A stretch of 32,463 bases of DNA from Planctomycetota bacterium (lineage in GTDB: Bacteria; Planctomycetota; UBA8108; SXIK01): NCBI GenBank assembly GCA_016209535.1, contig JACQVW010000764.1:1-32463 (forward strand), written 5' to 3'. A program made the translations under genes and the position numbers. Position 1 is the first letter of the stretch, and each line of letters starts with the position of its first letter. The notes below the pieces were generated by a model, which was not told the DNA's origin, did no database searches, and was given only the letters and a program-made list of their open reading frames with translations. Positions 8,533-23,741 of the stretch are shown piece after piece.

Positions 8533-10665
8533 TCAGTGCCTCTCGAGCCCTCGGCGCACCTCCTCGAGCGCCGACGCCAGGTGGCGGGGGTCGATGACCG
8601 GGACGGCGCTCTCCGCCTTCCCCGACTCGATCACCTCCCGCACCGCGTTCATCGCCGCCTTCTTGCAGACAGCCTCGATCTCGGCCCCGGAGAAGCCCTC
8701 CGTCATCCGGGCGAGCGCCCTGACGTCGACCTCGGGTGACAGCGGCCGCCCCCGGAAGTGCACCTGGAAGATCTCGGTGCGGGACCCTTCGTCCGGGGGC
8801 TCGATCTCGATCACGACGTCGAATCGACCGGGTCTGAGGAGGGCGCGATCGAGCATGTCGGGACGGTTCGTCGTCCCGAGGACGAGGACACCACGCAGCT
8901 CCTCCATCCCGTCCAGCTCCGTGAGGATCTGGCTGAGCACACGCTCCGAGACGTGCGAGTCCGAGCCGTCTCCCGTGCGCCGAGGGGCGATGGCGTCCAT
9001 CTCGTCGAAGAGCACTATGCAGGGCGCGGCCTGCCTGGCCTTGGTGAAGACCTCGCGGACCGCCTTCTCCGACTCTCCGACATACTTGGAGAGGAGGGCA
9101 GGCCCCTTCACGGAGATGAAGTTGACCTGGCTCTCCCTCGCCACGGCTTTGGCGAGCAGCGTCTTCCCGCAGCCGGGAGGACCCACGAGGAGGATTCCTT
9201 TCGGAGGCTGGATGCAGGCCTTGCTGAACAACTTCTCGAACCTGAGCGGCCACTCTACGGCCTCCCTGAGGCGCGCCTTGGTGCTCTCGAGCCCACCGAC
9301 GTCATCCCAGTGCACGTCGGGGATCTCCACGAGGACCTCCCGGATCGCCGACGGCGACACGTCCCTGAGGCCGTCCAGGAAGTCACCCATCTGGACCTCG
9401 AGGCTCATGAGGTCCTCGTAGGGGATGCTCTTCATCGCGAAGTCGATCTCGGGCATGATCCTCCGGAGGCTCTTCATGGCGGCCTCCCGGCAGACGGCCG
9501 CAAGGTCGGCCCCCACGAACCCGTGAGTGATCTCAGCGATCCGCCCCAGATCGACCTCCGGGGAGAGCGGCATGCCCCGGCTGTGGATCTCCAGGATCGA
9601 CAGTCGCCCCGCCTTGTCCGGGATCGGGACGGCGATCTCCCTGTCGAAGCGCCCGGGCCGGCGCAAGGCGGGGTCCAGGGAATTGGGGATGTTGGTGGCG
9701 GCGATGACGACGAGGTGCTTTCGCTGGGAGAGGCCGTCCATCAGGCCCAAGAGCTGGGCCACGACCCTCTTCTCGACCTCGCCCACGACGTTCTCGCGCT
9801 TTGGGGCGATCGCGTCGATCTCGTCCAGGAACACGATGCTGGGCGCGTTCCTGGTCGCCTCGTCGAACACCTTGCGCAGGTGCGCCTCGCTCTCTCCGTA
9901 GAACTTGTGGATGATCTCCGGACCGGTGATGGCGAAGAACGAGGCCTCCGTCTCGCGGGCGACGGTGCGGGCGATCAGCGTCTTGCCGCACCCCGGAGGC
10001 CCATGGAGGAGCACTCCCTTGGGCGCATCGATGCCGAGCCTGTCGAAGACCTCGGGGTAGCGCAGGGGGAGCTCGACGATCTCCCGGATCTTCTGGATCT
10101 CCCGCTTGAGCCCGCCGATGTCCTCGTAGCTGGGTGCTGAGGTGACGCTGGCCCCTGGGCTCTCCTTGGCCGCGGTCTTGAGCTTGGTGCCGCTCACGAT
10201 GAGCACGGGGCCCCTGGGGCTCGTGGTCTCCACGGTGAAGTCCACGGTCCGGCGCCCGAAGAGGGTGAGCTGGATCTTCGAGCCCTCGATCACGGGGATG
10301 CCATCGAGGAGCCGCGCGATGTAGGCGAGATCGCCCTCTTTGGGGGCCGCCGCGGTCTGGAGCACGACCAGGCTCGCTTCGACCCTCGGCACCGTCCGGA
10401 CCTCGACCAGGTCGTCCAGGCCCACGCCGGCGTTCTCGCGCAGGATGCCGTCGATGTGCATGCGGCCTTGGCCGCGGTCATCGGGGAAACAAGGCATCAA
10501 CTTGGCGACGGCGGTCTTCTTGCCGCGGATCTCCACCACATCGCCGAGCTCGGCGCCCATGGCCCTGATGTCCGCTGGATCGAGGCGCGCATAGGCCCGC
10601 CCGACGTCCCTGCCGAGAGCCTCGCCGACCCTGTACTTGAAGGCCTTCGCAGCGATGGTCTCCAT
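8533..10665 (-). CDS. CDC48/VAT-like double AAA+ ATPase
   Basis: This 710-aa protein starts at ATG 10665, preceded by GGAGA 5 nt away; the frame stays open upstream, but the family begins here. Residues about 1-175 form a CDC48-type N domain (double-psi barrel and companion barrel). D1 has Walker A GPPGCGKT at about 222-229, Walker B IVFLDEIDAIAP and arginine-finger region RRPGRFDREI. D2 has Walker A at about 495-502, Walker B IVLFDEMDAIAP and RPGRFDVVIEI. Pore loops KFYG (D1) and KYVG (D2) keep aromatic residues, so threading/unfolding is likely. CDC48/VAT proteins extract and unfold proteins using ATP. It is the last gene of the gas vesicle cluster, 143 bp after the Hsp20 gene. A role in remodelling Gvp assemblies is inferred from position only. 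Confidence 0.93.
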   Translation of the reverse strand: METIAAKAFKYRVGEALGRDVGRAYARLDPADIRAMGAELGDVVEIRGKKTAVAKLMPCFPDDRGQGRMHIDGILRENAGVGLDDLVEVRTVPRVEASLVVLQTAAAPKEGDLAYIARLLDGIPVIEGSKIQLTLFGRRTVDFTVETTSPRGPVLIVSGTKLKTAAKESPGASVTSAPSYEDIGGLKREIQKIREIVELPLRYPEVFDRLGIDAPKGVLLHGPPGCGKTLIARTVARETEASFFAITGPEIIHKFYGESEAHLRKVFDEATRNAPSIVFLDEIDAIAPKRENVVGEVEKRVVAQLLGLMDGLSQRKHLVVIAATNIPNSLDPALRRPGRFDREIAVPIPDKAGRLSILEIHSRGMPLSPEVDLGRIAEITHGFVGADLAAVCREAAMKSLRRIMPEIDFAMKSIPYEDLMSLEVQMGDFLDGLRDVSPSAIREVLVEIPDVHWDDVGGLESTKARLREAVEWPLRFEKLFSKACIQPPKGILLVGPPGCGKTLLAKAVARESQVNFISVKGPALLSKYVGESEKAVREVFTKARQAAPCIVLFDEMDAIAPRRTGDGSDSHVSERVLSQILTELDGMEELRGVLVLGTTNRPDMLDRALLRPGRFDVVIEIEPPDEGSRTEIFQVHFRGRPLSPEVDVRALARMTEGFSGAEIEAVCKKAAMNAVREVIESGKAESAVPVIDPRHLASALEEVRRGLERH

Positions 10666-10808
10666 CGGTTCTCCGTTCACGGTCGTCCCGGCCCCTGGGC
10701 GCAGCGGCAGCCTTGCCGCCGGCGAAGGACGGCGGCCCCTCGAGGTCTTCCCGGCCGCAGAGCTCGAGGGGCGTGTGAGCCTTGATCCCTCACCGGGTCG
10801 GGGAGGGG

Positions 10809-11360
10809 TCACTTGGCGATCTTGATCTCGAGGACGCCGTTGCGGGTCGACTTGGTCATCTTGCTCTCCGCGGCCTGCCAGGGAAGCAAGATCTCCTTGT
10901 GGAACTTCTTCTCGCCCCTCTCGGCGTGGATGGTGAGGATGTCCCCCTTCAGCTCGAGGTGGATGTTCTTCTCCTCGACGCCGGGGAGCTCGGCGACCAC
11001 GAGGACGTGGTCCGCCTCCTCGAACACGTCCACGATCGGCTCGTAGACGTCCTGCACCACCGTCTCGCCATCATCGTCCTTCGAGATGTTCCCGAAGGGC
11101 TCGATGGTGAAGCCCTCGTTCGCGCCGAGGCCGCCGACCTTGACGGAGAAGCCGAAGACGCCTTTCAGGTCCTTCTGGCCGTGGATCCCGAGCTTCGAGA
11201 GGTCGATCTCGCCGACCTGCTTCAGCTCCTTCCCCTTCTCGGCCAGCTCTCCGACCTTCGTCAGCAGGTCCTGGAGCCCCCCCAGGAGCCCTCCCAGCGA
11301 GCCCCCCAGATCGATGTGGAACCCACCCTTGCCCCGCGGAGCCGTCTTTGTCTGTCCCAT
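10809..11360 (-). CDS. gvpH: Hsp20-family small heat-shock protein (GvpH-like)
   Basis: A 183-aa protein. The alpha-crystallin domain spans about residues 106-183 (VYEPIVDVFEEADHVLVVAE, then LPGVEEKNIHLELKGDILTI and NGVLEIKIAK). The N-terminal half is unusually Gly/Leu-rich (LGGSLGGLLGGLQDLL) and suggests a hydrophobic, amphipathic segment. The C-terminal IxI tail typical of many Hsp20 proteins is absent; the protein ends right after the last strand. The ATG at 11360 has a strong AGGAGG (minus-strand equivalent of 11368-11373). GvpH of haloarchaeal gas vesicle clusters is an Hsp20-type chaperone, so the symbol is assigned by family plus context. It probably holds aggregation-prone Gvp proteins. 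Confidence 0.88.
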   Translation of the reverse strand: MGQTKTAPRGKGGFHIDLGGSLGGLLGGLQDLLTKVGELAEKGKELKQVGEIDLSKLGIHGQKDLKGVFGFSVKVGGLGANEGFTIEPFGNISKDDDGETVVQDVYEPIVDVFEEADHVLVVAELPGVEEKNIHLELKGDILTIHAERGEKKFHKEILLPWQAAESKMTKSTRNGVLEIKIAK

Positions 11361-11419
11361 GTGTGAGCCTCCTGACTACGATTCGCCTGAATGGTCCCGG
11401 GAACGCCCCGGTACGGATT

Positions 11420-12025
11420 TCATGTCTGACGCGCCGCCTTGGCCTCCCCGAGAGGCAGCCTGGCGATCTGGGGGAGGACCTCGATGCTCGCCGGCAGATA
11501 CTCATCGACCCGATGGAGCAGTCCCATGAAGAGGATCCCCGTCTCGTCCTCTCGCAAGGTCTCGTCGATCCGGTTGGCTATGAATCTATCCCTCCTGCGG
11601 AGCAGGTCGGCAGCAGCAGAGGGCGCCGGTCGAGATCCGTCCTCCTTGCCCGCCGCGCTGATCGACTTGTACTCCTCCAGCAGCAGATCCGGACTCTCCG
11701 TGCCTACCAGGGTGGCTCCGCGCGCCACGAGCCTCTTCAGGAGCACGTGGTTGCGGCTGCTCCGTTGCGCCAGGTCAGTGACGATCTCGAGCTCCTTGCC
11801 GCAGACGGGCAAGCCGTCCTGGTAGAGCTTCACCTGGCGGAAGTCGACGGAGAGGCCGTAGACCATGCTCTCGATCTCGGACCACATCTCGCCGATCGCC
11901 TGAAGGTGCCTGTGCCAGCCCTCCTCGCCGATCCTCCGCACGTACTCGGTCCGGAGAGCCGTCTGGAGCGACCCCATGTCGGCTGGGGTATGGACGATCG
12001 GGACGTAGGCCAACCGCCTCTTCAA
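11420..12025 (-). CDS. Conserved protein of unknown function in the gas vesicle operon
   Basis: A 201-aa protein beginning (M)KRRLAYVPIVHTPADMGSL. The start is taken as TTG at 12025, which overlaps the upstream stop codon (TTGA, 4 bp) and lets translation couple. The sequence has a soluble alpha/beta look, with patches such as VKLYQDGLPVCGKELEIV, RSSRNHVLLKRLVARGATLVGTES and a C-terminal helix-rich part. There is no signal peptide or membrane helix. I have an impression that similar proteins occur as conserved hypotheticals elsewhere, but I cannot name a family or function. The block of conserved-looking polar residues (HTPADMGSL, DGLPVCG, GTESP) suggests an enzyme or nucleotide-binding fold; this is speculation. 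Confidence 0.8.
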   Translation of the reverse strand: MKRRLAYVPIVHTPADMGSLQTALRTEYVRRIGEEGWHRHLQAIGEMWSEIESMVYGLSVDFRQVKLYQDGLPVCGKELEIVTDLAQRSSRNHVLLKRLVARGATLVGTESPDLLLEEYKSISAAGKEDGSRPAPSAAADLLRRRDRFIANRIDETLREDETGILFMGLLHRVDEYLPASIEVLPQIARLPLGEAKAARQT

Positions 12026-12411
12026 GCGCCCTCCTCGGCCACGAACCCCTGGAGGAGGGAGCACAAGACATCCCGGCGGCAGTGCGGGGTCACGAGCTCG
12101 TCGGCCCCGAGCTCCAGGGCCCGCCGCGCGGTCTCCAAGCCGAGGTCCCGGCTGATGACCATGATCCGGACCCCAGGGTAAGTGGCCTTGAGCGTCTCGA
12201 GAGCCAGGCCCAGCTCCTCGCCAAGCCGGCTTGCAAAGACCAGGACAGCGCGCAGACCTTCCATGCCCTCCAGGGAGTCCCGCGGCGCCGCCGCAGCCTC
12301 CAGGGAGAGCTCGGGGTCGTCCAGCTCCTCGAGGAGGCTCGCCATCCAACGTCCGGCTTCCCGGTCCTCGCACAAGACGAGGACCTTCTGAGCGATCACG
12401 GTCTCTTCCAA
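12022..12411 (-). CDS. Stand-alone pseudo-receiver (CheY-like fold without phospho-Asp)
   Basis: A 129-aa protein with the alternating strand/helix pattern of a response-regulator receiver: VLVLCEDREAGRWMASLLEE, then LRAVLVFASRLGEELGLAL, VRIMVISRD and ALELGADELVTP. The position of the phospho-accepting Asp (end of strand 3, AVLVFAS) carries no Asp, and the conserved Lys of strand 5 is replaced (LVTPHC). It is therefore probably a phosphorylation-independent protein-interaction module. The start is TTG at 12411 with a GGAGGAG ribosome-binding site (minus-strand equivalent of 12421-12427). It overlaps the next gene by 4 bp. No output domain is present. Confidence 0.82.
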   Translation of the reverse strand: MEETVIAQKVLVLCEDREAGRWMASLLEELDDPELSLEAAAAPRDSLEGMEGLRAVLVFASRLGEELGLALETLKATYPGVRIMVISRDLGLETARRALELGADELVTPHCRRDVLCSLLQGFVAEEGA

Positions 12412-12486: not shown

Positions 12487-12831
12487 CTACATCAGGTCTC
12501 CGAGCGGCCCCAAGTTGATGTTCAAGTCCTCATCTTCAAGGCCGAAGGTCCGCTTGAGCTCTTGCATCTTCTCCTCGAGCCTCAAGAAGGCCACCCCGAG
12601 TCGCTCGACCTCCTCGGAGCTCAGGCTTCCTGCCTCGACCCGGCTCAGGGCCTGCTTCTCGCACAGCTTCCGGAGCAGATCGATGAGGGTCAAGACGAGC
12701 TTTGCAAGACCCTTCTCCGGACGCTCGGGTCGGAGGTTGACTCTGCCGCCGAGCCCGGCCTTCACTCCTTTCCTGAGCGCCGCGAGGAGCTCGTCCTCGG
12801 CGGTCTCACCGTTCAGGACCTGCGTTCTCAT
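12487..12831 (-). CDS. gvpK: Gas vesicle protein GvpK
   Basis: The GvpK core is unmistakable: GLAKLVLTLIDLLRKLCEKQ, then ALSRVEAGSLSSEEVERLGV, AFLRLEEKMQELKRTFGLED and the ending LNINLGPLGDL. GvpK is a conserved accessory protein required for gas vesicle formation in several systems; its exact role is unsettled. The ATG at 12831 (MRTQVLNGETAED) gives 114 aa and a 49-bp gap to the preceding gvpF. An alternative ATG at 12939 would add 36 acidic residues but overlap that gene by 59 bp, and its non-overlapping part has weaker codon bias. The stop is followed by a small tandem repeat of GATGTAGGA. Confidence 0.9.
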   Translation of the reverse strand: MRTQVLNGETAEDELLAALRKGVKAGLGGRVNLRPERPEKGLAKLVLTLIDLLRKLCEKQALSRVEAGSLSSEEVERLGVAFLRLEEKMQELKRTFGLEDEDLNINLGPLGDLM

Positions 12832-12880
12832 GTCTTCTTGTCCCTCGGCATCCTGTGCATCATCCTCGGCGAGCGGAGCG

Positions 12881-13780
12881 CTAGATACGCACTCCGGGCC
12901 CGAAAGCTCCTCGGAGGAGATCCAGGAGCCCGCCAGCATTGTCTGGGGGACTTCCTACCGGCTCTTCTTCGAGGTCCGACGTTCCCACGAAGCTGTAGGG
13001 AGGCCACGGCCCGCTCCCAACGAAGAGCACCTCCGGAAAGCAGCGGGGAAGGACGCGGAGCGTCTCCTCGAAGGCCCCGGCAAGCCGGCGCTCGACCAGG
13101 TAGGAGAGGCTGACCAGGACCTGCCGGCCGACCTGGATCCTGGCCCCCTCCTCCCGCGCCCGAGGCGCAAGGAAGCCGTTCACTCTCTCAACCCACTCCG
13201 CGCCGACCTTTCGAAGGCTCTCGCCTTGGCGCACGGCCGCGAGCTTGCGCCTGAGAAAGCTGAGCCCAGGCCCTCCCGCCCTTGGCCACGCTGCCCGGGC
13301 CTGGTCTCCCGGCCCGTAGCGCCTCCCGTCCACCTCAGGGCCCTGCGCAGCAGGCCCCGCGTCGATGAGGAGCCGCACCCCGTATTCCAGGCAACCACGG
13401 ATCCTCCTCAGAAGGGTTTGGAGCTGCCGGTGACGCTGCCGGAGCACCCGGCGCAGGGCTGCGGGGGAGGAGAAGGTGGTCCCGAACCGGGCGGGCACGA
13501 CGTCGGAGACGCGCATCGCGGCCTCCAGGATCGCCTCGTGACGGAGGACGGCGGCCTTGTCGATGCGGATCGTCGGGGTTGGCGCCTCGCTCGTGATCGC
13601 GCAGAGGCCCTTGAAGCGACACAAGCTCACCGGGCGTCCGCCGATCCCCGGCACGGGGAATGGCCCTGGCAGGCAGGCCTCGGGCCTGCGCCCCCTGCTG
13701 GTCATGGCGCGTGCCGGCCAGTCCGCGGCGACGCCATACACGTAAACCCGTCTCTGGTCGACGAAGGCCTTAGTTCCCAT
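12881..13780 (-). CDS. GvpF/GvpL-family gas vesicle protein (copy nearest gvpK)
   Basis: A 299-aa protein starting [17 protein letters not shown]. The ATG at 13780 lies inside the last codons of the preceding gvpF gene (11-bp overlap). Family marks are the N-terminal YVYGV strand, the central HEAILEAAMRVSDVVPARFGTTF (the VLP-x-RFG region of GvpF) and the C-terminal GPWPPYSFV. Between them is an Arg-rich helical section. GvpF/GvpL proteins bind GvpA and are thought to help nucleate vesicles. This is the most diverged of the four GvpF/L proteins here, with a Pro/Gly/Arg-rich insertion (about residues 150-185) and a C-terminal extension of about 30 residues. Confidence 0.9.
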   Translation of the reverse strand: MGTKAFVDQRRVYVYGVAADWPARAMTSRGRRPEACLPGPFPVPGIGGRPVSLCRFKGLCAITSEAPTPTIRIDKAAVLRHEAILEAAMRVSDVVPARFGTTFSSPAALRRVLRQRHRQLQTLLRRIRGCLEYGVRLLIDAGPAAQGPEVDGRRYGPGDQARAAWPRAGGPGLSFLRRKLAAVRQGESLRKVGAEWVERVNGFLAPRAREEGARIQVGRQVLVSLSYLVERRLAGAFEETLRVLPRCFPEVLFVGSGPWPPYSFVGTSDLEEEPVGSPPDNAGGLLDLLRGAFGPGVRI

Positions 13781-14627
13781 GGGTGGACGGTGCTCTGCTT
13801 GGTTCCAGGTCGAGGAAGTTATAGGCGGGCCAGGGCCCGCTCGTGCGAAGGATGTATCCGTCCGCGAGCCAGCAGGGAGCGCTCGCCTCGAGCTCGTCCA
13901 GAAGAGCCTTCCGGTCCTCCCTCCGCAGGAGGCAGGTGATGCAGAGGATCGGCTCAAGCGAGCTGGGCTCCGCTTTTCTGGCTTGGGGCCTCTCGACGAG
14001 GATCTCCTCCGCATGAGACTGCACCCTCCCCAGCAGGTCGCTCGAGACCTCGCCGAACCTGGAGTCCACCAGCTCTCCGAGCACTACCGAGCGCTTCCTG
14101 CCGAGAAGGAAGGCCCGTCCCTCGGAGCTCGAGGAGATCTCGCGGTCCAGCTCCCGGACCTCCTGGGCCGTGGAGGCGAGCCTCCTCGCCAGGGCCCCTC
14201 GGTCTCCCAAGAGCGTCATGGACCACTCCTCCCGGCCTCGAAGCCTTCTCAAGGATCGATCGATCTCCTCGCTCCGGTCGAGCAGTGCTCCTGCCAGCGC
14301 CTCATCGCTCGAGTAGATGACCCCGAAACGCGATGGGAGGACCGTGAATCCCCTTTCCATGAGCCGATCCGCCACGGCCTCGTGGTGTCTCACCTCGAGG
14401 GCGAGCGCGCCCAAGTCCTCGGCGAACCTCTCCGCCGCGGCCCTGCCGTAGCGGTCTCGGGCGACCGTCCTCAGGACGCCGGCCGCGCGCTCACCCAGGA
14501 CCCGGATGGGCGAGCCATCGGGCGCCTCGAGCCCGTGGAAGACCTCCGGCGGCGGCTTGGGGCTCGCGATGCAATACAAGTAGGCTCCCAGGCCTCCTTG
14601 CGAGGCGCTCGTCTCCTTGTGGCTCAC
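13770..14627 (-). CDS. GvpF/GvpL-family gas vesicle protein (copy next to Hsp70)
   Basis: A 285-aa protein from GTG 14627, overlapping the Hsp70 stop by 4 bp (GTGA). Family marks are [13 protein letters not shown] at the N-terminus, [27 protein letters not shown] in the middle and [13 protein letters not shown] near the C-terminus. Two Cys residues occur in [12 protein letters not shown]. Overlapping genes on both sides (Hsp70 upstream, another gvpF downstream) argue for tightly coupled synthesis, consistent with Hsp70 acting on or with GvpF proteins. That functional link is inference. A longer upstream frame exists but would run through the Hsp70 coding region. Confidence 0.92.
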
Positions 14628-16498
14628 GGCGCCGCTCCTTCCCGGGTATCCACGAGGCCGGGCTCGCCGACCATCCCCTCGCACCTTTCCGCCCCTCTCA
14701 GAGGAGCGCACAGGGTGTAGAGCTGATCGGTGGAGGCCAGGATCCTTTCCGTGTCGCCCGAGGAGCAGAGGGCCTCCGCCCTCTCCAGGGCCTCCGCGAT
14801 GGCGAGACGCTTCGAGGCGGGAAGCGCGTCGCGGTGGAGGGCCAGCCTCGACCTCGCCCGAGCTGCCAGGCACGCAAGGTCCGTTACGGCGATCGCGTGG
14901 TCCCGCCGCCTCTTGTCCTCCTCCCAGTTCTCCCGAGCGGTCTCCACCATCCGCTCGACCTCCTCGGGGTCAAGGGCCAGGCTCTCGTTCACGTCCACGT
15001 GGACCGCATCTCCCGTGTGGAGGTTCTCCGCCGCCACGTGGAGGATCCCGTCCGCGTCCACATCGAACGTCACCTCGATCTTGGGGACCGTCCGGGGGGC
15101 GGGCTCGATGCCCGTGAGCTGGAACTGGCAGAGGCTCCGGTTGTCCTGGGCCATGTCCCTCTCTCCTTGAAGGACGTGGACGTTCACGGCGGCCTGGTTG
15201 TCCTGGGCGGTGGAGAAGACCTCGCCCCGGATCACCGGGATCTTGTTGTTTCGAGGGATGATGCTCCGGAACACGCCCCCCACGGTCTCCACGCCCAAGG
15301 AGAGGGGCAGGACATCCAGCAGGAGGGCCCCGTCTGCCTCCCCGGAGAGCATACCAGCATGGATGGCGGCTCCGATGGCCACGGCCTCGTCCGGATCCAC
15401 GCCGCCCCTCGGCTCGCGGCCAAACACCTCGGCCGCCAGCCTCCGCACGAGGGGTATTCGAGTCGCCCCCCCGACGAGGACGAGGTCGTCCAGGTCCCTT
15501 CCGGTCAGCCTCGCGTCCGCGAGCACCTGGTGGCAGATCGCGACCGTCCGAGCCAAGGTCGCCCGGATGAGGCCCTCGAGCTCTCGTCGCGTCACGACCG
15601 TCTCGAAGGCCGATCCCCGCCCCAGGAGCAGCCGCACAGTGGCCGCCTCCGCCGTCGACAGCTCGATCTTCGCTCCCTCCGCGGCCCGGATGACGCGCGG
15701 CAAGAGCTCGGCCTCCGCCAGGGGGTCGATCCCGGTCTCCGCCACGCAGGCCTTCGCCAGGTGACTGGCGAGGATCCAGTCCAGGTCGTCACCTCCCAGG
15801 TGCGTGTCCCCTCCCGTGGCGAGCACTTCGAAGACACCGTTTCTGATATCCAGGATGGACACGTCGAAGGTCCCGCCTCCCAGGTCAAAGACGGCCACCT
15901 TGCGGTCTCCCGTTCGGTCCATACCATAGGCGATCGCGGACGCCGTCGGCTCGTTGATGATTCGCAAGACCTCCAGGCCGGCGATCCTTCCAGCGTCCTG
16001 CGTCGCCCGGCGCTGCTGGTGGTCGAAGTAGGCAGGCACCGTGATCACCGCGGCCGTGACGGTCCCTCCCAGGCCCTTTTCGGCGATCTCCTTCATCCTG
16101 AGGAGGATCCTCGCCGAGACTTCCTGAGGCGTGAAGGAAGCAGAGCCGAGGTGGATGGAGATGTTCAGGTCCGGCCGCTCGCTGACGGGGCATCCCACCC
16201 GCCCGGCGTCGCTCGCGACCTCGGCGAGCCGCCTCCCCATGAGGCGCTTCACCGAGATGACGGAGCACGTCGAGCCTTCCTCCCGAGCCAGCCGTGCCTT
16301 CCACCCGACCAGCCACGCTCCCTGGGGGCTGCGGGCCAGCGCTGACGGGGTCGTCCGGCGCCCCTCCTCATCGGGGATGACCACGGCGCGCCCCCGTTGG
16401 TAGACCGCCACGCAGGAGTTGGTCGTCCCGAGGTCGATGCCGACGGCCCGGCCGCGCACCTGCGACCCCCGCGCGCTGGATCCTCGTCGAGAGCTCAT
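14624..16498 (-). CDS. Hsp70 (DnaK-like) chaperone encoded within the gas vesicle operon
   Basis: A 624-aa protein with full Hsp70 architecture. The ATPase domain has [15 protein letters not shown] (about 20-34), [49 protein letters not shown] and [11 protein letters not shown]. The substrate-binding beta domain has [29 protein letters not shown] and [16 protein letters not shown], followed by a short helical lid. There is no EEVD tail and no GrpE gene beside it. ATG 16498 overlaps the preceding gvpA/J-like stop (ATGA). It is shorter and more divergent in the lid than housekeeping DnaK, so it is probably a dedicated paralogue. A candidate J-domain partner is fused to GvpF at 21502-22524. Substrates are inferred to be Gvp proteins. 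Confidence 0.94.
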
Positions 16499-16794
16499 CT
16501 CGCGGCCTCCTCCTCCAGGGCCTCGACCCGCTTGCGCAACGCCCGGTTCTCGCTCAAGATCTCGCCCATCCTTGACGAGAGCTTGGGGTCCGCCTGCCAC
16601 CAGTCGATGCCCATCTCCCTGGCTCGGTCCACCGACGCTATGAGGAGCCTCAGCTTGATCGTCAGCAGCTCCACATCGAGGAGCTGGATCACGATGTCGC
16701 CGGCGATGACGATACCCTTGTCGAGCACCCGCTCCAGGATGTCGGCGAGGCTCGTGCTCTCAAGCGAGTGGGCGAGCTGCTTCTCCATCGTCAT
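16495..16794 (-). CDS. GvpA-family protein, GvpJ-like
   Basis: A 99-aa protein whose first 65 residues carry the GvpA/J/M fold: [20 protein letters not shown], then [22 protein letters not shown] (helix-strand-strand-helix). Unlike the shell protein at 19979-20194 it has a charged, heptad-like C-terminal extension (IGEILSEN-like, [16 protein letters not shown]) likely to form a coiled coil. Such C-terminal extensions are typical of GvpJ-type minor proteins rather than GvpA. It overlaps gvpG by 4 bp upstream and Hsp70 by 4 bp downstream. Probably a low-abundance tip or nucleation component. Confidence 0.92.
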
Positions 16795-17033
16795 GACTCC
16801 TCAAGCTCGTCGTCACGGTCAGCAGCCTCGAGCAGGTCCAGGATCTCTCGCTCCTTGAGCTCGTACTCCTCCTCGGAGATCTCGTCCATCTCGTAGAGCA
16901 ACTGGATCTCGAGGAGCTTCTTCCTCAGCGCGTCCCGATCGCTGACATCCGCTCCAGCGACCTCGTGGAACTTCTGGCCGATCCACATCACTCCTTTGAT
17001 GGGCGCCAGCAGGATGTCATCGAGGAGCAGCAT
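16791..17033 (-). CDS. gvpG: Gas vesicle protein GvpG
   Basis: An 80-aa protein with the complete GvpG signature: LLLDDILLAPIKGVMWIGQK at the N-terminus, then LRKKLLEIQLLYEMDEISEEEYELKEREIL and an acidic tail. GvpG is a small accessory protein usually encoded beside GvpF/GvpL and needed for assembly. ATG 17033 has AGGAG about 7 nt upstream and overlaps the end of the preceding gvpF/L gene by 17 bp; the stop overlaps the GvpJ-like start by 4 bp. Confidence 0.94.
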   Translation of the reverse strand: MLLLDDILLAPIKGVMWIGQKFHEVAGADVSDRDALRKKLLEIQLLYEMDEISEEEYELKEREILDLLEAADRDDELEES

Positions 17034-17844
17034 CGCAGCACTCCTCCTGGCTGAGGTCTCCTTCGGACTCCAACTCGGCCTCGTCGATGACGATCTCGAC
17101 GAAGTTCGCTGGAGGAAGGGGCCCGACGTACTTGAAGAGCATCCTCTGCTCTCGCTTCGCCGCGAGATCGTTGACGGCCTGATCGAGCTCCTCGTCCAGG
17201 CTCTTGGGAACGAGGAAGGCTGCATTGAGGATCATCCGGTCCATCAGGGGATCGTTGAGCCTCACCTCGTCGGCCAAGCCTCGCAGGTGAGATAGGATGG
17301 CCTCCTTCTCGCGCTCGCTTTTCCGCTTCAAGGCAGCTTGAACCTTCTCCCCAAACACCATCAGCCGCCAGTGGTCGCGCCTGCCAGAGAGGGAATCGCT
17401 GCTCAGCGCGTCGCGCTCCTCCGCGATCTCCTGGTCCTCCCGCAGGATCTCCTCGAAGACCACGTCTTTCCTCCAGGTGACCTTCAGGCCCAGCTCGTGC
17501 TTGTCGCGGACTCTGTCGAAGGCCGCGTGCATCTCCCCGCGCCGCCTCCGGAGCACACGCCGGATCCCCTGCTCGCGGGTGGCGATCGTGGCGAACTTCA
17601 CGGGGAGGACCGCCGCCATCGCCATGGCTTCCTCGACCACACGTTGATGGTGGAGGACGCTCTGGCGCTCCACCCTGTACGTGGTGAGGGGAGACTCGCT
17701 GACGAGGGCGCACAGGTCTCCTTCCTGGACGGCCCAGACCGACGTGTGCTCGCCTGCTATGCCAGGGGTCTCGAGAAGGCGCGGGAGCCTGCCTTGCGCG
17801 ACGCAATAGATGTACAGGCCTTGTGTTGTGGTCGCTTTGCTCAC
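17017..17844 (-). CDS. GvpF/GvpL-family gas vesicle protein (copy upstream of gvpG)
   Basis: A 275-aa protein. Start chosen: GTG at 17844 (VSKATTTQGLYIYCV), 5 nt after the stop of the preceding gene, because the family begins at LYIYCV. Family marks are GLYIYCVAQGRLP, VLHHQRVVEEAMAMAAVLPV followed by KFATI, NAAFLV and the C-terminal YVGPLPPANFVEIVI. This is the most typical GvpL/GvpF of the four copies, and its position just before gvpG matches the common gvpF-gvpG order. Role: GvpA-binding assembly factor. An upstream TTG at 17925 would overlap the previous gene and lacks a ribosome-binding site. Confidence 0.93.
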   Translation of the reverse strand: MSKATTTQGLYIYCVAQGRLPRLLETPGIAGEHTSVWAVQEGDLCALVSESPLTTYRVERQSVLHHQRVVEEAMAMAAVLPVKFATIATREQGIRRVLRRRRGEMHAAFDRVRDKHELGLKVTWRKDVVFEEILREDQEIAEERDALSSDSLSGRRDHWRLMVFGEKVQAALKRKSEREKEAILSHLRGLADEVRLNDPLMDRMILNAAFLVPKSLDEELDQAVNDLAAKREQRMLFKYVGPLPPANFVEIVIDEAELESEGDLSQEECCDAAPR

Positions 17845-17849: not shown

Positions 17850-18227
17850 TCAGCGCTCGATCCTCATCATCGTCCAGGTCTTCTCGGGCCACGATGGCAG
17901 GCTCGCACGCCCCTTCCGGCGGCAAGCCTTCGCCGATCCGCCAAGGCGCTTCCTCAGCCGCGCGGCCATCTCGCTGTTGAGCTCGCGACGCCGCTGGTTG
18001 CGCCTCAAAGCCCGGCGGAGGTTCTCCCGCTCGTTCTCGAGCATGGACCGCTTGTGCTCCAGCATCTGGCTCGTCAGCTCGCTGCCATGACTCCTGCGCG
18101 GCATCGACCGAAGGCCCGCCCTCAGGCTCGAGTGCAGGTCAGCCAGCCTGGGGACGTACCTCCTCGCCATGGATCTCGTGCTCGAGCTCGACGGACGCTT
18201 GAGGCACCCGAACTTGCTCTTCGCCAT
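17850..18227 (-). CDS. Small very basic coiled-coil protein of unknown function
   Basis: A 125-aa protein, strongly Arg/Ser-rich, beginning MAKSKFGCLKRPSSSSTRS. A central predicted helix (MLEHKRSMLENERENLRRAL, then RRNQRRRELNSEMAARLRKR) looks like a charged coiled coil. ATG 18227 is supported by an AGGAAGGAGAG ribosome-binding site. It fits snugly between gvpO (15-bp gap) and gvpF (5-bp gap), which supports it being a real gene. I recognise no family. It is unlike GvpC (no 30-40-residue repeats). It could bind acidic vesicle components or nucleic acid; unknown. Confidence 0.75.
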   Translation of the reverse strand: MAKSKFGCLKRPSSSSTRSMARRYVPRLADLHSSLRAGLRSMPRRSHGSELTSQMLEHKRSMLENERENLRRALRRNQRRRELNSEMAARLRKRLGGSAKACRRKGRASLPSWPEKTWTMMRIER

Positions 18228-18242: not shown

Positions 18243-18551
18243 CTAGAAGCTTGTCTCCAGGACGATGGACTCATCGACCTTCGTGGGCGTGGGCTCGGGG
18301 ACCGCGGTCCGCGAGCGGGCCTTCCGCCTCGCGTAGCCTTGGATCCGCAGGTCACCGTCGAGCAGCACCTCGTACACGGAGACGAGGCCGTCCCGGCCGT
18401 ACCTGCGCATGTGCTCATCATCCTCGATGATCTCCGCGAACACGCGGAAGCCTCCGTCGTGGGGCTGGATCGCCACCACCGTGCAGGGCTTCCCAAGGAT
18501 CTTGAGGAAGAACCGCGTCGTCGCCTCGTGGACACTATCGATCTCGGGCAT
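18243..18551 (-). CDS. gvpO: Gas vesicle protein GvpO
   Basis: A 102-aa protein in the GvpO pattern: helix (VHEATTRFFLKILGKPCTVV), then a three-strand sheet (GGFRVFAEIIE, SVYEVLLDGDLRIQGYARRK) with the VYEV-LDGDLR-GYxRR block that marks the family. The tail is Pro/Thr-rich. ATG 18551 is preferred over GTG 18560 because it has GAGGTGA 6 nt upstream. GvpO is essential for vesicle formation in haloarchaea and common in actinobacterial clusters; its mechanism is not established. It lies 27 bp after gvpN. Confidence 0.9.
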   Translation of the reverse strand: MPEIDSVHEATTRFFLKILGKPCTVVAIQPHDGGFRVFAEIIEDDEHMRRYGRDGLVSVYEVLLDGDLRIQGYARRKARSRTAVPEPTPTKVDESIVLETSF

Positions 18552-18578
18552 CGGAGTCACCTCGGTTTCTCTCGTGCT

Positions 18579-19586
18579 TCAGTCTGGGACCCCTGCCAGG
18601 GCGAGCTCCTTCGTGGGGGCGCTGGACTTCGCCTTGCAGGTTTTTCCGCGACTGGAGACGTTTCCAGCGGTCTGGCAGTACCGGTCGATCAGGCTGCCGA
18701 TGATCTTGGTCGTCTCCATCCTCACCGAGCGCGTTCCGAGCCGGGAGGTCTCCGATCCTAGGACGTCGAAGCAGATCTGGCGGAAGATCGGATCGTCAGA
18801 GCATACTCTCGCTCCGCGTACCCGCGCCGTCTTGGCGATCATGATCCCGGCGCGCACCGTCGGCGCGAAGTCGTACATGTCCTTCTCCTGCCGGAAGGCC
18901 CTGATGATCTGGACGATGGGCGCGATCTCCTCAGGCGTCGTCCCAGACCGCGACGCGGCGATCGCGCACTCGGTCACCTCGTCGAAGTGCTCCAGATCCA
19001 AGGTGACCATCCTGTCACGGAGCGCGTCCTGCGTCTTGTGCACCCCGGCGTACTCCTCCGGGTTGCTGCTGAAGATCGCGCAGAAGTCGGGAGAGACGCG
19101 GATGTAGTGCTGGCCGTCACGGGCGGTCGGCAGGTCCAGCATCCGCTCCTGGAGGACCGAGAGGAGGATGTTATTGGTCTCGGGGCGAGCTCGCGTGAAC
19201 TCGTCGTAGATCAAGGTGAAGCCGTACTTGCAGGCCACGGTGAGGCGGTTGTCGACCCAGCGCTTGAAGTAGTCCTCCTCGCTGCGCCGGACCGAGTGGA
19301 TGAAGTTGTCCACGACCTTCCTGACCTTGAACCCCTGCGCGCCGCCTACCAGGTCCGACGTCGTGAGCTCGTCATCGCCGTGGATCAGGACCACGGGCCG
19401 ATTGATCTTGCTCGCGATGTGCATGGCGACCGTCGTCTTCCCCGTGCCCGAGATCCCACGCAGGTGGAGGGGAAAGCCCGCTGCCAGGTATCCCATCGCA
19501 CGCTCGACGAGGTCCCGGATGTAAGGCGTCTCGACGAATCCCTCGACGGGACGCGGCTCGATGAGCGTGGTCAGTTCCTGGGTCAT
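18579..19586 (-). CDS. gvpN: Gas vesicle AAA+ ATPase GvpN (MoxR-type)
   Basis: A 335-aa protein with Walker A GISGTGKTT (about 44-52), Walker B FTLIYDEFTRA and sensor/arginine motifs (IFSSNPEEYAG, RDRMVTLDL). The segment GDDELTTSDLVGGAQGFK is typical of GvpN. ATG 19586 has AGGAA just upstream. The frame is open further upstream but would enter the leader of the sigma-54 promoter at 19724-19740. The C-terminus carries a Cys/Ser/Lys-rich tail (GKTCKAKSSAPTK). GvpN proteins support vesicle growth by ATP-dependent remodelling. It is the first gene of the long downstream operon. Confidence 0.95.
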   Translation of the reverse strand: MTQELTTLIEPRPVEGFVETPYIRDLVERAMGYLAAGFPLHLRGISGTGKTTVAMHIASKINRPVVLIHGDDELTTSDLVGGAQGFKVRKVVDNFIHSVRRSEEDYFKRWVDNRLTVACKYGFTLIYDEFTRARPETNNILLSVLQERMLDLPTARDGQHYIRVSPDFCAIFSSNPEEYAGVHKTQDALRDRMVTLDLEHFDEVTECAIAASRSGTTPEEIAPIVQIIRAFRQEKDMYDFAPTVRAGIMIAKTARVRGARVCSDDPIFRQICFDVLGSETSRLGTRSVRMETTKIIGSLIDRYCQTAGNVSSRGKTCKAKSSAPTKELALAGVPD

Positions 19587-19723
19587 GCGTTCCTGTCTGT
19601 GATACTCGACCGCTTCGGCCTGCCTGGACACTACGACGGGCGGGTACCTGTTCCGCACCCCCAAGCAAGCGCGCAGGAGGAGAAAGGGGAGTGATCCTTT
19701 CGTCTCTGCGCCAGTGCGTGCAA

Positions 19724-19740
19724 TAGCAAGAGGCGTGCCA
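19724..19740 (-). promoter_or_regulatory. Sigma-54 promoter of the gvpN operon
   Basis: The minus strand reads TGGCACGCCTCTTGCTA. This has the -24 GG (19739-19738) and -12 GC (19727-19726) with the exact 10-nt spacing, and matches the TGGCACG-N4-TTGCW consensus throughout its conserved positions. The predicted start site is near 19714, giving a leader of about 127 nt before gvpN. Confidence 0.85.
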
Positions 19741-19978: not shown

Positions 19979-20194
19979 TCAGGCGGGCGTGGCGGCCGAC
20001 GCGGTGAGGCCGACGGCCTCGGCGTACTTCAGGAACGTCTCGACGGACGCGCACACCACGCGGGCCTCGATCGCGAGGAGCTCGATCCCGACCATGGAGA
20101 CGCGGGCCCACGCGTCGATCACGATCCCCTTGTCGAGGATGCGGTCGACGACCTCGACCAGACTGGACGACCCGATCGTCTTCTGAACAGCCAT
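19979..20194 (-). CDS. gvpA: Gas vesicle major shell protein GvpA
   Basis: A 71-aa protein with the classical GvpA sequence: [55 protein letters not shown]. This is the amphipathic helix-strand-strand-helix that polymerises into the ribbed gas vesicle wall. ATG 20194 has a strong AAGGAGAG ribosome-binding site about 7 nt upstream. It is flanked by its own sigma-54 promoter (20323-20338) and an intrinsic terminator (19910-19951), so it can be made monocistronically at high level. A Cys lies in the second helix region (ARVVCASVE). The length is normal for the family. Confidence 0.97.
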
Positions 20195-20422: not shown

Positions 20423-21436
20423 TCACGGCTCCCTGCAGCTCGCGATGTATGGCGACGCCGCCAGGGATATGGATCTGGCTCCACGCTTCCCCGGACCACT
20501 TGGGAGGTCCAGGTGCGGAAGGATCTCTGCGCCTAGCCTTCGCAGCTTGTCCACGCCCCGGATGTCGTCCGGCTCTCTGGCCACGCGGATCAGATGCTCT
20601 TTCTGGAACCGCTTCTCCAGCTCATTCCAGTAACGCTCCTGCTCCCGGCGCTTGACCTTGCAGAAGCGGCAGATCTCGCCTTCCTCCGGGAGGAGGCCGT
20701 TGACGACGACCGACCGGACAGGGATCCCGAACCGTTTGAGGTGCTCGAGGAGCCGGGCGCTTTCCTCCACGGCGAGCGCCTCGGGCGTCGTCACCAGGAC
20801 GAACCTTGAGCGGCGCGGGTCCTTCAGGAGCGCCTTCATCCGCTTGATCGTCCGCTTCATCGTGAACAGGAAGTCATCCTGGGGGCAATCCGCCTCTTCG
20901 CGTGCCATGTGGTAGACCACCTCGCGGTACCTGTATCGCAGCCGGGCGAGCGCGCCGATCCAGCTTTCGAGGACATCCGGCATCGAGAGGAGCCTGAGAG
21001 CGTGCCCGGTAGGAGCCGTGTCGAGCACGTACGTCGAATACCGGCCTTCCTCCATCAGGTCCATGACGCTCTTGAGCCCCATGACCTCGTCAAGCCCAGG
21101 TATGGTCAACGACGTGAGCCCATCGATGTCGGACTCGTCAAGGTACGTGCCGCTCGAAAGGATAGCCCTCAGGTGGCCCTCGTGCTCCGCCCTGAAGCGG
21201 CGGAGCACCACCTCGGGGTCGACCTCGAGGACATCGAGGTTGCGGACACCCGCCACGGGCACGATGGAGGGGCCCACAGCCTGGACCAAGCAGTCGCCGA
21301 GGGAGTGGGCTGGGTCCGTCGAGAAGAGGAGGGTCCTCTCCTCGAGCTCGGCGATGGAGAGGGCCACGGCGGCGGAGCAGGTAGTCTTCCCCACGCCGCC
21401 CTTGCCGCCGAAGATGATCAAGGAGCTTTCGTTCAT
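20423..21436 (-). CDS. Get3/ArsA-family ATPase with CxxC motif
   Basis: A 337-aa P-loop ATPase of the ArsA/TRC40/Get3 group. It has the deviant Walker A GKGGVGKTT (11-19), switch I STDPAHSLGD (39-48), switch II LDTAPTGHALRLL and A-loop region VTTPEALAVEES. Cys256-x-x-Cys259 (ICRFCK) matches the zinc-binding dimer motif of Get3 rather than the metalloid-binding cysteines of ArsA. No arsenic genes are nearby. Get3 shields hydrophobic transmembrane segments of tail-anchored proteins. Here it sits between the GvpF-J fusion and gvpA, so I infer a role in escorting hydrophobic GvpA-type proteins. The ATG at 21436 has no clear ribosome-binding site. Confidence 0.92.
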   Translation of the reverse strand: MNESSLIIFGGKGGVGKTTCSAAVALSIAELEERTLLFSTDPAHSLGDCLVQAVGPSIVPVAGVRNLDVLEVDPEVVLRRFRAEHEGHLRAILSSGTYLDESDIDGLTSLTIPGLDEVMGLKSVMDLMEEGRYSTYVLDTAPTGHALRLLSMPDVLESWIGALARLRYRYREVVYHMAREEADCPQDDFLFTMKRTIKRMKALLKDPRRSRFVLVTTPEALAVEESARLLEHLKRFGIPVRSVVVNGLLPEEGEICRFCKVKRREQERYWNELEKRFQKEHLIRVAREPDDIRGVDKLRRLGAEILPHLDLPSGPGKRGARSISLAASPYIASCREP

Positions 21437-21501
21437 GCCATCGCGCAGGACGCTTGATCCGCCCTGCTCCCCCTGTGGGTTTCCTGAGCTCGCACGATCT
21501 C

Positions 21502-22524
21502 TCAGCGCGAGAGGAGAGCTTCGCCGGGGGCCGTGGCGGTGCTCGTCTCCTCCCCGGCGCCCGGAACCAAGCGATGGACGAAGCTCTCGCAGTATGCGGT
21601 CAAGAGGTCGTAGGCCCCGACGATCTCCTGATAGCGCCGGTAGTCCTCGGGGCCGGCATCCCCCCGGTCAGGGTGGTGCTCGGAGGCCAGACGCCGGAAC
21701 GCCTCCCTCACATCGGCCAGGCTCGCCTGCTCGGGGAGCGCCAGCGTGGTCCGCGCGGCGTCCAGGAGCTCCCACGGATCTGCTTGCAGCTCCAGGTCGC
21801 AGAAGCTGTAAGGCGGCAGGGGGCCTATGCGCTTGACCTGAAGGTCCCCATCCCGGGTCCTCGCCGCCTCCTCCACCGCCCTGTCGAACTCCGCTTCGCG
21901 GTCCTGCTCCACGAGGAACGCCCCGTTCAAGATCATGTCAGCGTCCAGGAGCCGGTGGAGCGTCACCGCGGCTGCCGCCGGCTTCAGCCTCGAGAGGATG
22001 CTCTCCACGGCCTCCCTGCGCCGCTCCTCGACGAGCTCGAAGAGGCGCTTGCCCACCCTGATTTGCAGCTCTTGGGAAGGATGCCTCGCGAACTCTTCCC
22101 TGAGCGCGGCGACCTCCCTGTCGCTCGAGGCGCACGCGACCGCCACCTTCGCATGGTCCCAGCGGGCCTGGACGGCGAGCTCGACGTGGCGCGTGACCCT
22201 CTTCAGGGCGGCCTTGAGCTGGAGGTAGAGGCGGGACACCGTCTCACGGACCTCCTCCTTCCCTGAGGCCACCATCCCAAAACGGAACGGGACCAAACTC
22301 CCTGCCCCCAGGAGGGACTGGTTGACCTCCTGGTGCCGAGCCACCAGGGACATGAGAGTCCCCTCGTCGGCCCCGTCGAAGCGGTCGTGCCAGGTCCGGC
22401 TCACGACGGCGGCCAGGTCCTTCACCGGGACAAGCTCGACGGGCGCGCCGTCGATGCCCACCAGACCGGAGCAGGGCAGGCCCCTGACACCCAGGACAGC
22501 GTAGATGTAGTGCCGTTCCGCCAT
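21502..22524 (-). CDS. GvpF/GvpL fused to a C-terminal DnaJ (J) domain
   Basis: A 340-aa protein. Residues 1-245 are a GvpF/L protein: RHYIYAVLGVRGLP, HQEVNQSLLGAGSLVPFRFG, ADMILNGAFLVEQ and GPLPPYSFCDLELQ. Residues about 250-315 are a J domain: WELLDAARTTLALPEQASLA, then DVREAFRRLASEH, HPD at 284-286 in EHHPDRGD, and the closing helix YRRYQEIVGAYDLL. The HPD tripeptide is the Hsp70-stimulating element, so this protein should recruit Hsp70. A Hsp70 is encoded in the same cluster at 14624-16498. The ATG follows the stop of the GvpA-family gene with no gap (TAGATG). Known: J domains select Hsp70 clients. Inference: GvpF delivers bound GvpA to Hsp70. Confidence 0.92.
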   Translation of the reverse strand: MAERHYIYAVLGVRGLPCSGLVGIDGAPVELVPVKDLAAVVSRTWHDRFDGADEGTLMSLVARHQEVNQSLLGAGSLVPFRFGMVASGKEEVRETVSRLYLQLKAALKRVTRHVELAVQARWDHAKVAVACASSDREVAALREEFARHPSQELQIRVGKRLFELVEERRREAVESILSRLKPAAAAVTLHRLLDADMILNGAFLVEQDREAEFDRAVEEAARTRDGDLQVKRIGPLPPYSFCDLELQADPWELLDAARTTLALPEQASLADVREAFRRLASEHHPDRGDAGPEDYRRYQEIVGAYDLLTAYCESFVHRLVPGAGEETSTATAPGEALLSR

Positions 22525-22737
22525 CTACGAGTCTCCGTGCCGCGGCTTCCGGCGCTCGCGCATCACGGTCTCCACGGAAGACAGGAGCACGCGAAGCTGA
22601 AGGTAGATGAGGTCCACGTCCGCGACCGAGATCGTGACCTCGCCGACGAGGACCACGCCCCTGTGAAGGACGCGGTCGAGGACCTCAAGCAGCGTCACGT
22701 CGCGACTCTTCTCGACAAGGCTCTCCACGGTCCTCAT
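22525..22737 (-). CDS. GvpA-family protein, GvpM/GvpS-like
   Basis: A 70-aa protein of the GvpA/J/M family: VTLLEVLDRVLHRGVVLVGE, VTISVADVDLIYLQLRVLLS, SVETVMRERR. The ISVADVDLIYLQLR block resembles the minor GvpM/GvpS/GvpJ proteins rather than the shell GvpA, and the C-terminus is short and basic. ATG 22737 has a weak GAGAG upstream. The next gene, GvpF-J, starts immediately after its stop codon. Probably a minor nucleation component; which letter (J, M or S) fits best cannot be settled by eye. Confidence 0.92.
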   Translation of the reverse strand: MRTVESLVEKSRDVTLLEVLDRVLHRGVVLVGEVTISVADVDLIYLQLRVLLSSVETVMRERRKPRHGDS

Positions 22738-22928
22738 GGGTACCGCTCTCTCGTGCTCACGTCAGGAACCGACACTGGGAACAAGGAACGCAGCCACCAT
22801 CTCTGCGCCCGGCCACCACCCACGTCCCCTTGGAAAACGGTCCGCAGGACGGGGAGCGCGGGCCGGCAGCTCTACCGCGCGCTCCCCCTTCCGGCTGTCC
22901 GGCGAGAGGCTGCCCGCCGCTCGAGCGC

Positions 22929-23741
22929 TCAGTGCGAGGCGCCGCTCCCGGCCAGGCTCTCGACGAGGTGGTGGGACCCGTCGTCACTCTTCTCGACGGT
23001 CCCCCCGGCGACGAGCTCCTTGAGGAGCCCGCTGAGGTCATGCCACGAGACATCGGCCTTCTCGGAAAGCTCGCGGTACTTGAGGCCTGGGTGCTTGCGG
23101 AGGGCCCTCAAGATGCGCTCCCTGGGCTCGCTCGCTCGCTCCGAGACGTTTCCGGAGGACCTGGACTTTGGCGCGTGTCCGCTGTGCATGTGGGCCGCGC
23201 CAGCTCCGGCCCAGGCACGGGCAGCGGCCTCGCCGTCCTGGCGAAGCTCCTCGAGCCTGGCGCGGCAGTCCCCCAGGAGATCCCCGATGGCTCGCTCCCT
23301 TGCGTGAGCCTGCGAGCGAAGCTCGTGCTTGAGCTTCGACATGCTCGACCGTCGCTGCGCCTCGCCTGCCTTGAGTTGGGCCTGGGAGCCCGCCAGTCGC
23401 TTTCCGACCTCGTGGCGCCGTTGACGGCCCTCATCGCTGCGCAGCCGGGTATCTTTGCGGGCCTTCTTGACGCGCTCCGCCTCGCCGCCACGCCGCTCCT
23501 TCCCGGCCGCCTCCTCGAGCTCCTTCACGCAGCTCGCCCTGCTCCGGGATTCTCTCTCGCGCCCCCGCGAGTCCTGGGCGGCCTCCGCCTGCCGGTGGGC
23601 CTCCTCCTCGGCCCGCTCCCTGCTGAAGGCCTCGCCTTGCTCCCGGATCGCTGCGGACCGCCCCCTGTTCGCTTGGCGGTTCTCCTCGTGCAAGTGGTCG
23701 ATCTTCTCCCGCAGGCTCTGCATCTCTTCGGCTCTTGACAT
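22929..23741 (-). CDS. Coiled-coil protein with C-terminal winged-helix-like domain
   Basis: A 270-aa protein. ATG 23741 is chosen for the very strong GGGAGGTGAGG just upstream; the open frame beyond it is likely leader. Residues about 1-180 are highly charged and nearly all predicted helix, beginning MSRAEEMQSLREKIDHLHEE (Arg/Glu/Lys/Gln, long coiled coil). A short Ala/Gly/His segment follows (AWAGAGAAHMHSGH). The C-terminus (PRERILRALRKHPGLKYREL, then SEKADVSWHDLSGLLKELVA, GGTVEKSDDGSHHLV) looks like a winged helix. It is the first gene after the first sigma-54 promoter. I recognise no named Gvp family; a structural coiled-coil or a regulator are both possible. Confidence 0.8.
   Translation of the reverse strand: MSRAEEMQSLREKIDHLHEENRQANRGRSAAIREQGEAFSRERAEEEAHRQAEAAQDSRGRERESRSRASCVKELEEAAGKERRGGEAERVKKARKDTRLRSDEGRQRRHEVGKRLAGSQAQLKAGEAQRRSSMSKLKHELRSQAHARERAIGDLLGDCRARLEELRQDGEAAARAWAGAGAAHMHSGHAPKSRSSGNVSERASEPRERILRALRKHPGLKYRELSEKADVSWHDLSGLLKELVAGGTVEKSDDGSHHLVESLAGSGASH

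Follow-up and report, generated by a model that had tools for sequence, protein, structure and literature searches.

Chaperone-like proteins have been linked to gas vesicle protein (gvp) clusters before. Castillo and Saier (2010; PMC2963123) describe gvp clusters from four phyla that contain an ArsA-family ATPase and an Hsp20. For GvpF, a chaperone-like role as the primary and transient binding partner of GvpA has been proposed (PMC11445434; PMC9501494), and GvpH prevents the aggregation of GvpM in haloarchaea (PMC6107691), a precedent for Hsp20. Here we analyze a gvp cluster on a 32,463-nucleotide stretch of DNA from Planctomycetota bacterium (assembly GCA_016209535.1, contig JACQVW010000764.1, positions 1 to 32,463; hereafter the window). 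The cluster encodes an Hsp70, a fusion of GvpF with a J domain (GvpF-J), an Hsp20, a Get3-type ATPase and a CDC48. It is the fullest version seen among the surveyed loci of a recurrent gvp-linked, putative proteostasis module, and it bears on how a very hydrophobic shell protein stays soluble and enters the gas vesicle.

Five chaperone-type genes within one gvp cluster

The window lies on contig C640 of a 9.1-Mb, 906-contig genome that is 80% complete. Pfam and NCBIfam profile scans of the translations delimit a single gvp cluster on the minus strand, running from about 23.8 to 8.5 kb; all cluster genes, regulator genes and promoter-like sites given below lie on this strand. GvpA, GvpN, GvpF/L, GvpG and GvpK occur together, and the cluster is a predicted vesicle locus, known from its genes. 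The scans recovered every part named in the preliminary description, GvpO only as a weak match (18243..18560; PF05800, 16.4 bits, under the cut-off of 25).

GvpF-J (340 aa, 21502..22524) combines a GvpF domain (PF06386, 199.3 bits) with a J domain (PF00226, 35.8 against a cut-off of 27.8 bits), both over cut-off, and carries the HPD motif at residues 284–286. Its start abuts the stop of a gene for a 70-aa GvpA-family protein resembling GvpJ/M/S (22525..22737; PF00741, 57.0 bits). In an AlphaFold2 model (predicted local distance difference test, pLDDT, 83) the GvpF part resembles the crystal structures of GvpF (4qsg, 6l5d), and the J-domain model superposes on the DnaK-bound J domain of 5nro with TMt 0.80 and 2.1 Å, yet with a weak E-value (~0.01). 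By its domain, HPD motif and modeled fold GvpF-J is a J-domain protein, and stimulation of an Hsp70 ATPase is predicted.

In a tree of 136 GvpF/L rows, built without seven Bacillus loci and weak or short matches, all 13 GvpF-J proteins, that of the window included, fall into a single clade (Shimodaira–Hasegawa-like approximate likelihood ratio test, SH-aLRT, 99), which fits a single fusion event followed by spread. The HPD motif is unchanged in the 12 that were aligned and is also present in the thirteenth. Pfam found both domains in ten further GvpF-J proteins scanned, with the J domain under cut-off in one (L047), and two more were found by our own J profile only. Among the matches listed from a search of 392 genomes of the phylum, a match spanning both halves occurs in this genome and in one other, G055.

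CDC48 (8533..10812) has a CDC48_N domain (75.9 bits) and two AAA domains with both P-loops and Walker B motifs, and reaches 902 bits with TIGR01243 (cut-off 802.65). The Hsp20 (10809..11360; PF00011, 30.0 bits, cut-off 20.8) lies in a GvpH-like position and stays below the cut-off of the GvpH profile itself (PF05455, 20.4 against 22). The ATPase (20423..21436) is a single-domain Get3/TRC40-type protein that resembles Get3 relatives in the PDB: it scores 247.6 bits with TIGR00345 (cut-off 135), with the deviant P-loop GKGGVGKT and the CxxC motif as CRFC. It has one P-loop in 337 aa and reaches only 132.7 of 650 bits with TIGR04291, so that it does not qualify as a two-domain ArsA arsenite pump. 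In the Get3 tree it groups with seven single-domain Get3 proteins of clusters bearing GvpF-J (J loci; SH-aLRT 94, just short of the mark for strong support).

The fifth gene encodes a 624-aa, divergent Hsp70/DnaK-like protein (14624..16498, start placed at 16498; PF00012, 616 bits). It exceeds the cut-off of PRK00290 (663.7 against 648) and falls under that of the DnaK equivalog TIGR02350 (648.3 against 822.55). The preliminary description had pointed to 4-bp stop/start overlaps in the cluster, and five such junctions are present. Three are consecutive, leading from gvpG (16791..17033; PF05120, 67.1 bits) by an ATGA overlap to the gene of a 99-aa GvpA-family protein (16495..16794; PF00741, 59.5 bits), from there to hsp70, and on to a gvpF/L gene (13770..14627; PF06386, 134.0 bits); the hsp70 gene therefore lies inside a run of coupled gvp genes. 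The others join a receiver-like gene to that of an uncharacterized protein, and hsp20 to cdc48, where an alternative cdc48 start at the ATG at 10665 would undo the overlap.

Recurrence of the module in other gvp clusters

A scan of the genome collection with the GvpF-J protein alone as query gave no match, and an alignment of GvpN was used instead. Across 84,980 species genomes it yielded at least 52 named loci, which are a sample. The loci were annotated with our own profiles, with presence called at bit thresholds of our choosing, and the stretches end at contig ends (4 of 52 are shorter than 5.5 kb and 11 of 52 shorter than 12 kb), which makes the absences upper bounds.

Hsp20 is present in 27 of the 52 named loci, CDC48 in 26, Get3 in 15, GvpF-J in 11 and Hsp70 in none. 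All 11 J loci hold Hsp20, ten hold CDC48 and eight hold Get3, single-domain in seven of the eight; the 41 loci without GvpF-J have Hsp20 in 16, CDC48 in 16 and Get3 in seven. All four parts occur together in seven loci from four phyla, and GvpF-J accompanied by Hsp20 and by CDC48 or Get3 in 11, from seven phyla and Saganbacteria. The titles of the corresponding metagenome-assembled genomes name Nitrospinota, Chlorobiota (two), Saganbacteria, Bacteroidota (three), Actinomycetota, Lentisphaerota, Pseudomonadota and Chloroflexota.

Within the phylum, 18 of the 20 other GvpF-positive genomes gave 20 loci. G253 and G277 were left out, as were some gvp contigs of G114, G182 and G272; L015, with a 31-bit GvpF trace and no clear gvp gene, is kept in the count of 72 loci. 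A module of Hsp20, CDC48 and GvpF-J, often with Get3, is thus widespread in gvp clusters, and an in-cluster Hsp70 is rare. The co-occurrence that the preliminary description had suggested searching for was found for the J domain, Get3 and CDC48, and Hsp70 is present in none of the 52 named loci and in one of the 72 other loci.

The linkage of CDC48 to gas vesicles is strong across 294 genomes of the phylum. CDC48_N is over cut-off in 12 of 21 GvpF-positive genomes versus 6 of 273 GvpF-negative ones (Fisher p=6.6e-12), and in 11 of the 12 genomes having both, CDC48 lies on the gvp contig. In the gvp loci of two further GvpF-positive genomes (G023, G182), CDC48 is present as pieces at contig edges that lack the N domain. 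Among the six GvpF-negative genomes that account for the rest of the 18 over-cut-off matches, G145 has its CDC48 next to an Hsp20 and a gvp-linked uncharacterized protein and probably represents a fragmented gvp cluster; the match of G188 to the window CDC48 is only 31 bits. In a 44-row tree, the four CDC48s without recognized gvp neighbors are a clade of their own on a long branch (support 100). Far from the other gvp CDC48s fall two CDC48-like proteins from gvp loci of cyanobacteria (L065, L076), each of them distinct and preceded by a two-domain Get3/ArsA. A control search matched CDC48 in only four archaea among 14 genomes, and we therefore do not regard it as a housekeeping protein of bacteria.

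A proposed proteostasis module for the gas vesicle shell protein

We propose that the gvp operon carries a proteostasis module in which GvpF-J acts as a GvpA-specific J protein together with Hsp70, Hsp20, Get3 and CDC48, a reading to which we assign a probability of roughly 60%. By the established logic of J proteins, a J domain on GvpF would make the fusion a client-specific co-chaperone. GvpF-J would capture GvpA or GvpA-like subunits early and trigger their transfer to Hsp70, which here would be the in-cluster paralog and, where a cluster has none, presumably the housekeeping DnaK. Exposed hydrophobic surface would be shielded by Hsp20 and the single-domain Get3, and a hexameric CDC48 would pull misassembled or excess subunits apart for reuse. 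We infer each of these interactions, and the order of hand-off, from the gene set. The preliminary description had suggested a dedicated folding and quality-control line made of these five parts. Four of them, Hsp20, CDC48, Get3 and GvpF-J, are regular members of gvp clusters rather than chance neighbors, as the recurrence and the CDC48–GvpF association attest. These four are shared widely with other genomes, and only the Hsp70 is a rarity; the function stays predicted.

Several observations weigh against this proposal. In PMC11445434, binding of Bacillus megaterium GvpF to GvpA2 was seen only after removal of other Gvps, and in PMC4982088 a Serratia gvpH mutant had vesicles of unchanged shape and stability. 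None of the five parts is present in the stretches covered for seven of eight Bacillota and 10 of 13 cyanobacterial loci, so that no part is universally required. Get3 is not counted in three of the 11 named J loci (one of them, L045, has a sub-threshold Get3 fragment at the contig end) nor in the stretch from G055, and the CxxC motif of the window Get3 is kept in only three of its seven single-domain relatives from J loci and missing in four. GvpF-J adjoins CDC48 neither in the window nor in G055. An in-cluster Hsp70 occurs in only one of the 72 other loci, that of G055, where about 0.73 would be expected by chance at an assumed three Hsp70 genes per 4.5-Mb genome. The G055 protein is a fragment of 210 aa lying at the end of its contig, and it and the window Hsp70 do not group together. 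Hsp70 and GvpF-J are weakly associated (p=0.030, or 0.17 when the window is left out).

The CDC48, Hsp20, Get3 and GvpF-J genes might instead serve turnover, that is, the dismantling and recycling of collapsed or unneeded vesicles rather than the folding of new subunits. CDC48 is known as a segregase. In all ten named J loci with CDC48, the gene for GvpF-J comes immediately after cdc48, as an adaptor might accompany its unfoldase, and Bacillus-type gvp clusters make vesicles, with seven such loci here lacking the module. Arguing the other way are the 4-bp overlaps by which chaperone genes are coupled to assembly genes, and the Pfam and NCBIfam scans made, in which no protease gene was recognized in the cluster. 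GvpF is moreover proposed as an early binder of GvpA (PMC11445434). On balance we consider turnover as the role of these genes improbable, and favor the proteostasis module acting on new subunits.

A second alternative, to which we give about as little credence, concerns Hsp70, which might be an incidental passenger inserted in the operon, with GvpF-J working only with the housekeeping DnaK. It would account for the absence of Hsp70 from the stretch covered in all 11 named J loci and for a frequency in the 72 loci at chance level; because of the latter, the functional membership of Hsp70 rests on the gene overlaps. The two in-cluster Hsp70s that do not group may mean independent recruitment. 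A passenger fits less well with the overlap of hsp70 with gvp genes by 4 bp on both sides and with an open reading frame that keeps R167, N170, T173 and D393 of Escherichia coli DnaK, which we take to be positions contacting the J domain (position 148 is changed from D to H). Both Hsp70-bearing clusters, the window and G055, also contain GvpF-J, the latter with Hsp20, CDC48 and a separate full DnaK elsewhere in the genome.

The window Hsp70 is also divergent from the DnaKs of its lineage. With the longer DnaKs of relatives from the same family, order and class it shares 41–47% identity, against 64–69% for the housekeeping DnaK of G055 with those same proteins. Unbroken DnaKs of same-order relatives score 853–856 bits versus 616 for the window protein. 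By these comparisons it is a divergent paralog, distinct from the housekeeping DnaK of the lineage. Only identities were used here because long branches meet in the Hsp70 tree (the window protein with E. coli HscA), from which two fragments and two long Hsp70-like proteins of contig C91 were excluded. The genome survey of Hsp70 refers to the matches listed for 52 genomes, of which 32 are among those with the 52 named loci and 20 belong to the phylum, and in-cluster Hsp70 was judged within the loci themselves. Of five relatives searched from the same family or order, four have a DnaK, which in two of them is in pieces.

That Hsp70 and CDC48 are ordinary housekeeping copies lying here by chance, the outcome that the preliminary description had named as refuting its claim, is most improbable and was rejected: no second CDC48 and no canonical DnaK were found in the 80%-complete assembly, and the same-order relative G281 likewise gave no Hsp70 match, but just 18 of the 294 genomes from the phylum have a CDC48 over cut-off, linked to gvp genes in most of them, and the window Hsp70 differs from the relatives' DnaKs in score and identity.

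Elsewhere in the genome, contig C125 appears to carry a separate Hsp70/J pair, in which a J-domain match (C125:341-502) lies shortly upstream of a second Hsp70-like gene (L137, 1410-3266); on contig C91 the two long Hsp70-like proteins lie side by side.

Remaining genes, origin and regulation

The cluster is headed by a winged-helix protein with a charged region (22929..23825; HTH_24, 23.0 bits); this region looks coiled-coil-like, and the protein is a possible cluster-specific regulator. After the genes for the GvpA-like protein, GvpF-J and Get3 come those for a 71-aa GvpA (19979..20194; PF00741, 57.6 bits), the AAA+ ATPase GvpN (18579..19664; AAA_5, 69.4 bits; 57% identical to that of a Nitrospinota locus), the GvpO-like protein, and a small basic protein for which the Pfam scan matched no family (17850..18227). 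A GvpF/L with a GTG start at 17844 (17017..17844; PF06386, 205.6 bits) precedes GvpG. Beyond Hsp70 and the GvpF/L that follows it lie a further GvpF/L (12881..13780; PF06386, 146.5 bits), GvpK (12487..12939; PF05121, 106.0 bits) and the weak receiver-like protein (12022..12411; PF00072, 18.5 bits, under the cut-off of 30.2), which we read by its position as GvrC-like. In the G055 locus (L013) gvpN is split into two overlapping frames, with a second gvpN-like piece upstream (6702-7699, 8691-9068).

The uncharacterized protein of about 200 aa (11420..12025) matched no Pfam or NCBIfam family. Its family occurs in gvp clusters of several phyla, often adjoining NtrC or Hsp20, and 14 further copies entered our profile. 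Its model is confident (pLDDT 87), and comparison with the PDB gave no match at E<=0.001.

The phylogenies of individual genes point in two directions. The window CDC48 belongs to a 13-row set from Desulfobacterial, Acidobacterial and similar loci without the J fusion (support 99), and GvpN to a 12-row set including eight J loci (support 95), in a tree without the rows of 17 Bacillus-type and cyanobacterial loci. Since CDC48 groups with non-J loci, and GvpN and Get3 with J-type loci, the cluster looks like a mosaic assembled from two cluster types.

Among the other genomes of the same class in the 294-genome draw, none has GvpF; the order of G055 contains only G055 itself. Contamination of the bin was considered in view of the flanks. 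Of nine relatives in the order, two have a gene 61–62% identical to the flank gene 5396-8473, and a third, G133, gave a trace of 18 bits; in tetranucleotide composition the flanks resemble two further contigs of this genome (r=0.99). The flank gene is part of a region (293-8473) on the 3' side of the cluster that encodes two large glycosidase-like proteins, a family name given by reading rather than by a scan. The gvp part has a lower guanine-plus-cytosine content (0.669 against 0.743 and 0.689) and a tetranucleotide correlation of r=0.94, so that the cluster itself may have come from elsewhere. A same-order genome, G338, was compared as an empty site: the left-flank gene is shared (62%) and the right-flank genes tested gave no match, a result that neither shows nor excludes insertion as a unit.

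Upstream of the cluster lie two genes for NtrC-type sigma-54 activators, one GvrA-like with a receiver domain (24162..25622; PF00158, 215.4 bits; PF00072, 67.1 bits) and one without an apparent receiver domain that matches the same NtrC relatives (25619..26893). A search with the sigma-54-like -24/-12 consensus found a perfect match before gvpN (19726..19740) and two sites with one mismatch each (20324-20338, 23884-23898). Three sites compare with 1.08 expected, and 11 of 100 shuffles reach as many, so that their number is not significant alone. Together, the NtrC genes and the sites suggest sigma-54 control of the cluster.

Comparison with known systems

The ArsA (Get3) ATPase and Hsp20 were already known from gvp operons. 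The operons of Castillo and Saier (PMC2963123) have an ArsA-family ATPase and an Hsp20 in gvp clusters, as here; their ArsA proteins are two-domain and of about 637 aa, whereas the window Get3 has a single domain, and the main text never names CDC48, p97, DnaJ, DnaK, J-domain or Hsp70. Serratia-type clusters with gvrA/B/C and gvpH (Monson et al. 2016, PMC4982088) share with the window the NtrC-type regulators, several GvpA and GvpF paralogs and an Hsp20 in the GvpH position; the main text of that paper never names ATPase, AAA, Hsp20, heat shock or DnaK. The named Desulfobacterial and Acidobacterial loci have the uncharacterized protein, NtrC, Hsp20 and CDC48 in a row, and the window has the same order minus NtrC. 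The GvpF chaperone of B. megaterium and haloarchaea (PMC11445434, PMC9501494) shares the GvpF domain with the fusion, and DnaJ, DnaK, J-domain and Hsp70 are never named in the main texts of these papers. The B. megaterium cluster behind the interaction map of PMC11445434 is of the Bacillus type, and the seven loci of that type here have no module genes. Searches of the open-access literature, beyond which most subscription papers and preprints lie, turned up no paper that places CDC48 or GvpF-J among the genes of gvp clusters; in one gas vesicle paper CDC48 is a column contaminant.

With the module comes a bacterial CDC48 whose candidate client is obvious. Altering only the HPD motif should uncouple binding by the GvpF part from the recruitment of Hsp70, and the extra genes might raise the yield of gas vesicles for imaging reporters.

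The wider arrangement would work like the disaggregation chain of small heat-shock protein (sHsp), DnaK/DnaJ and ClpB, which consists of a small Hsp, a J protein, an Hsp70 and a ring-shaped AAA+ unfoldase, here aimed at a single hydrophobic shell protein. The window likewise has a small Hsp, a J protein, an Hsp70 and a ring AAA+ unfoldase. It differs from that chain in having CDC48 for ClpB, a client-specific GvpF domain on the J protein, and an operon shared with the client. As a tentative generalization, a broad class of gvp clusters may encode a one-client proteostasis machine of GvpF-J, CDC48, Hsp20 and Get3 in which CDC48 replaces ClpB, joined in this lineage by a private, co-translated Hsp70.

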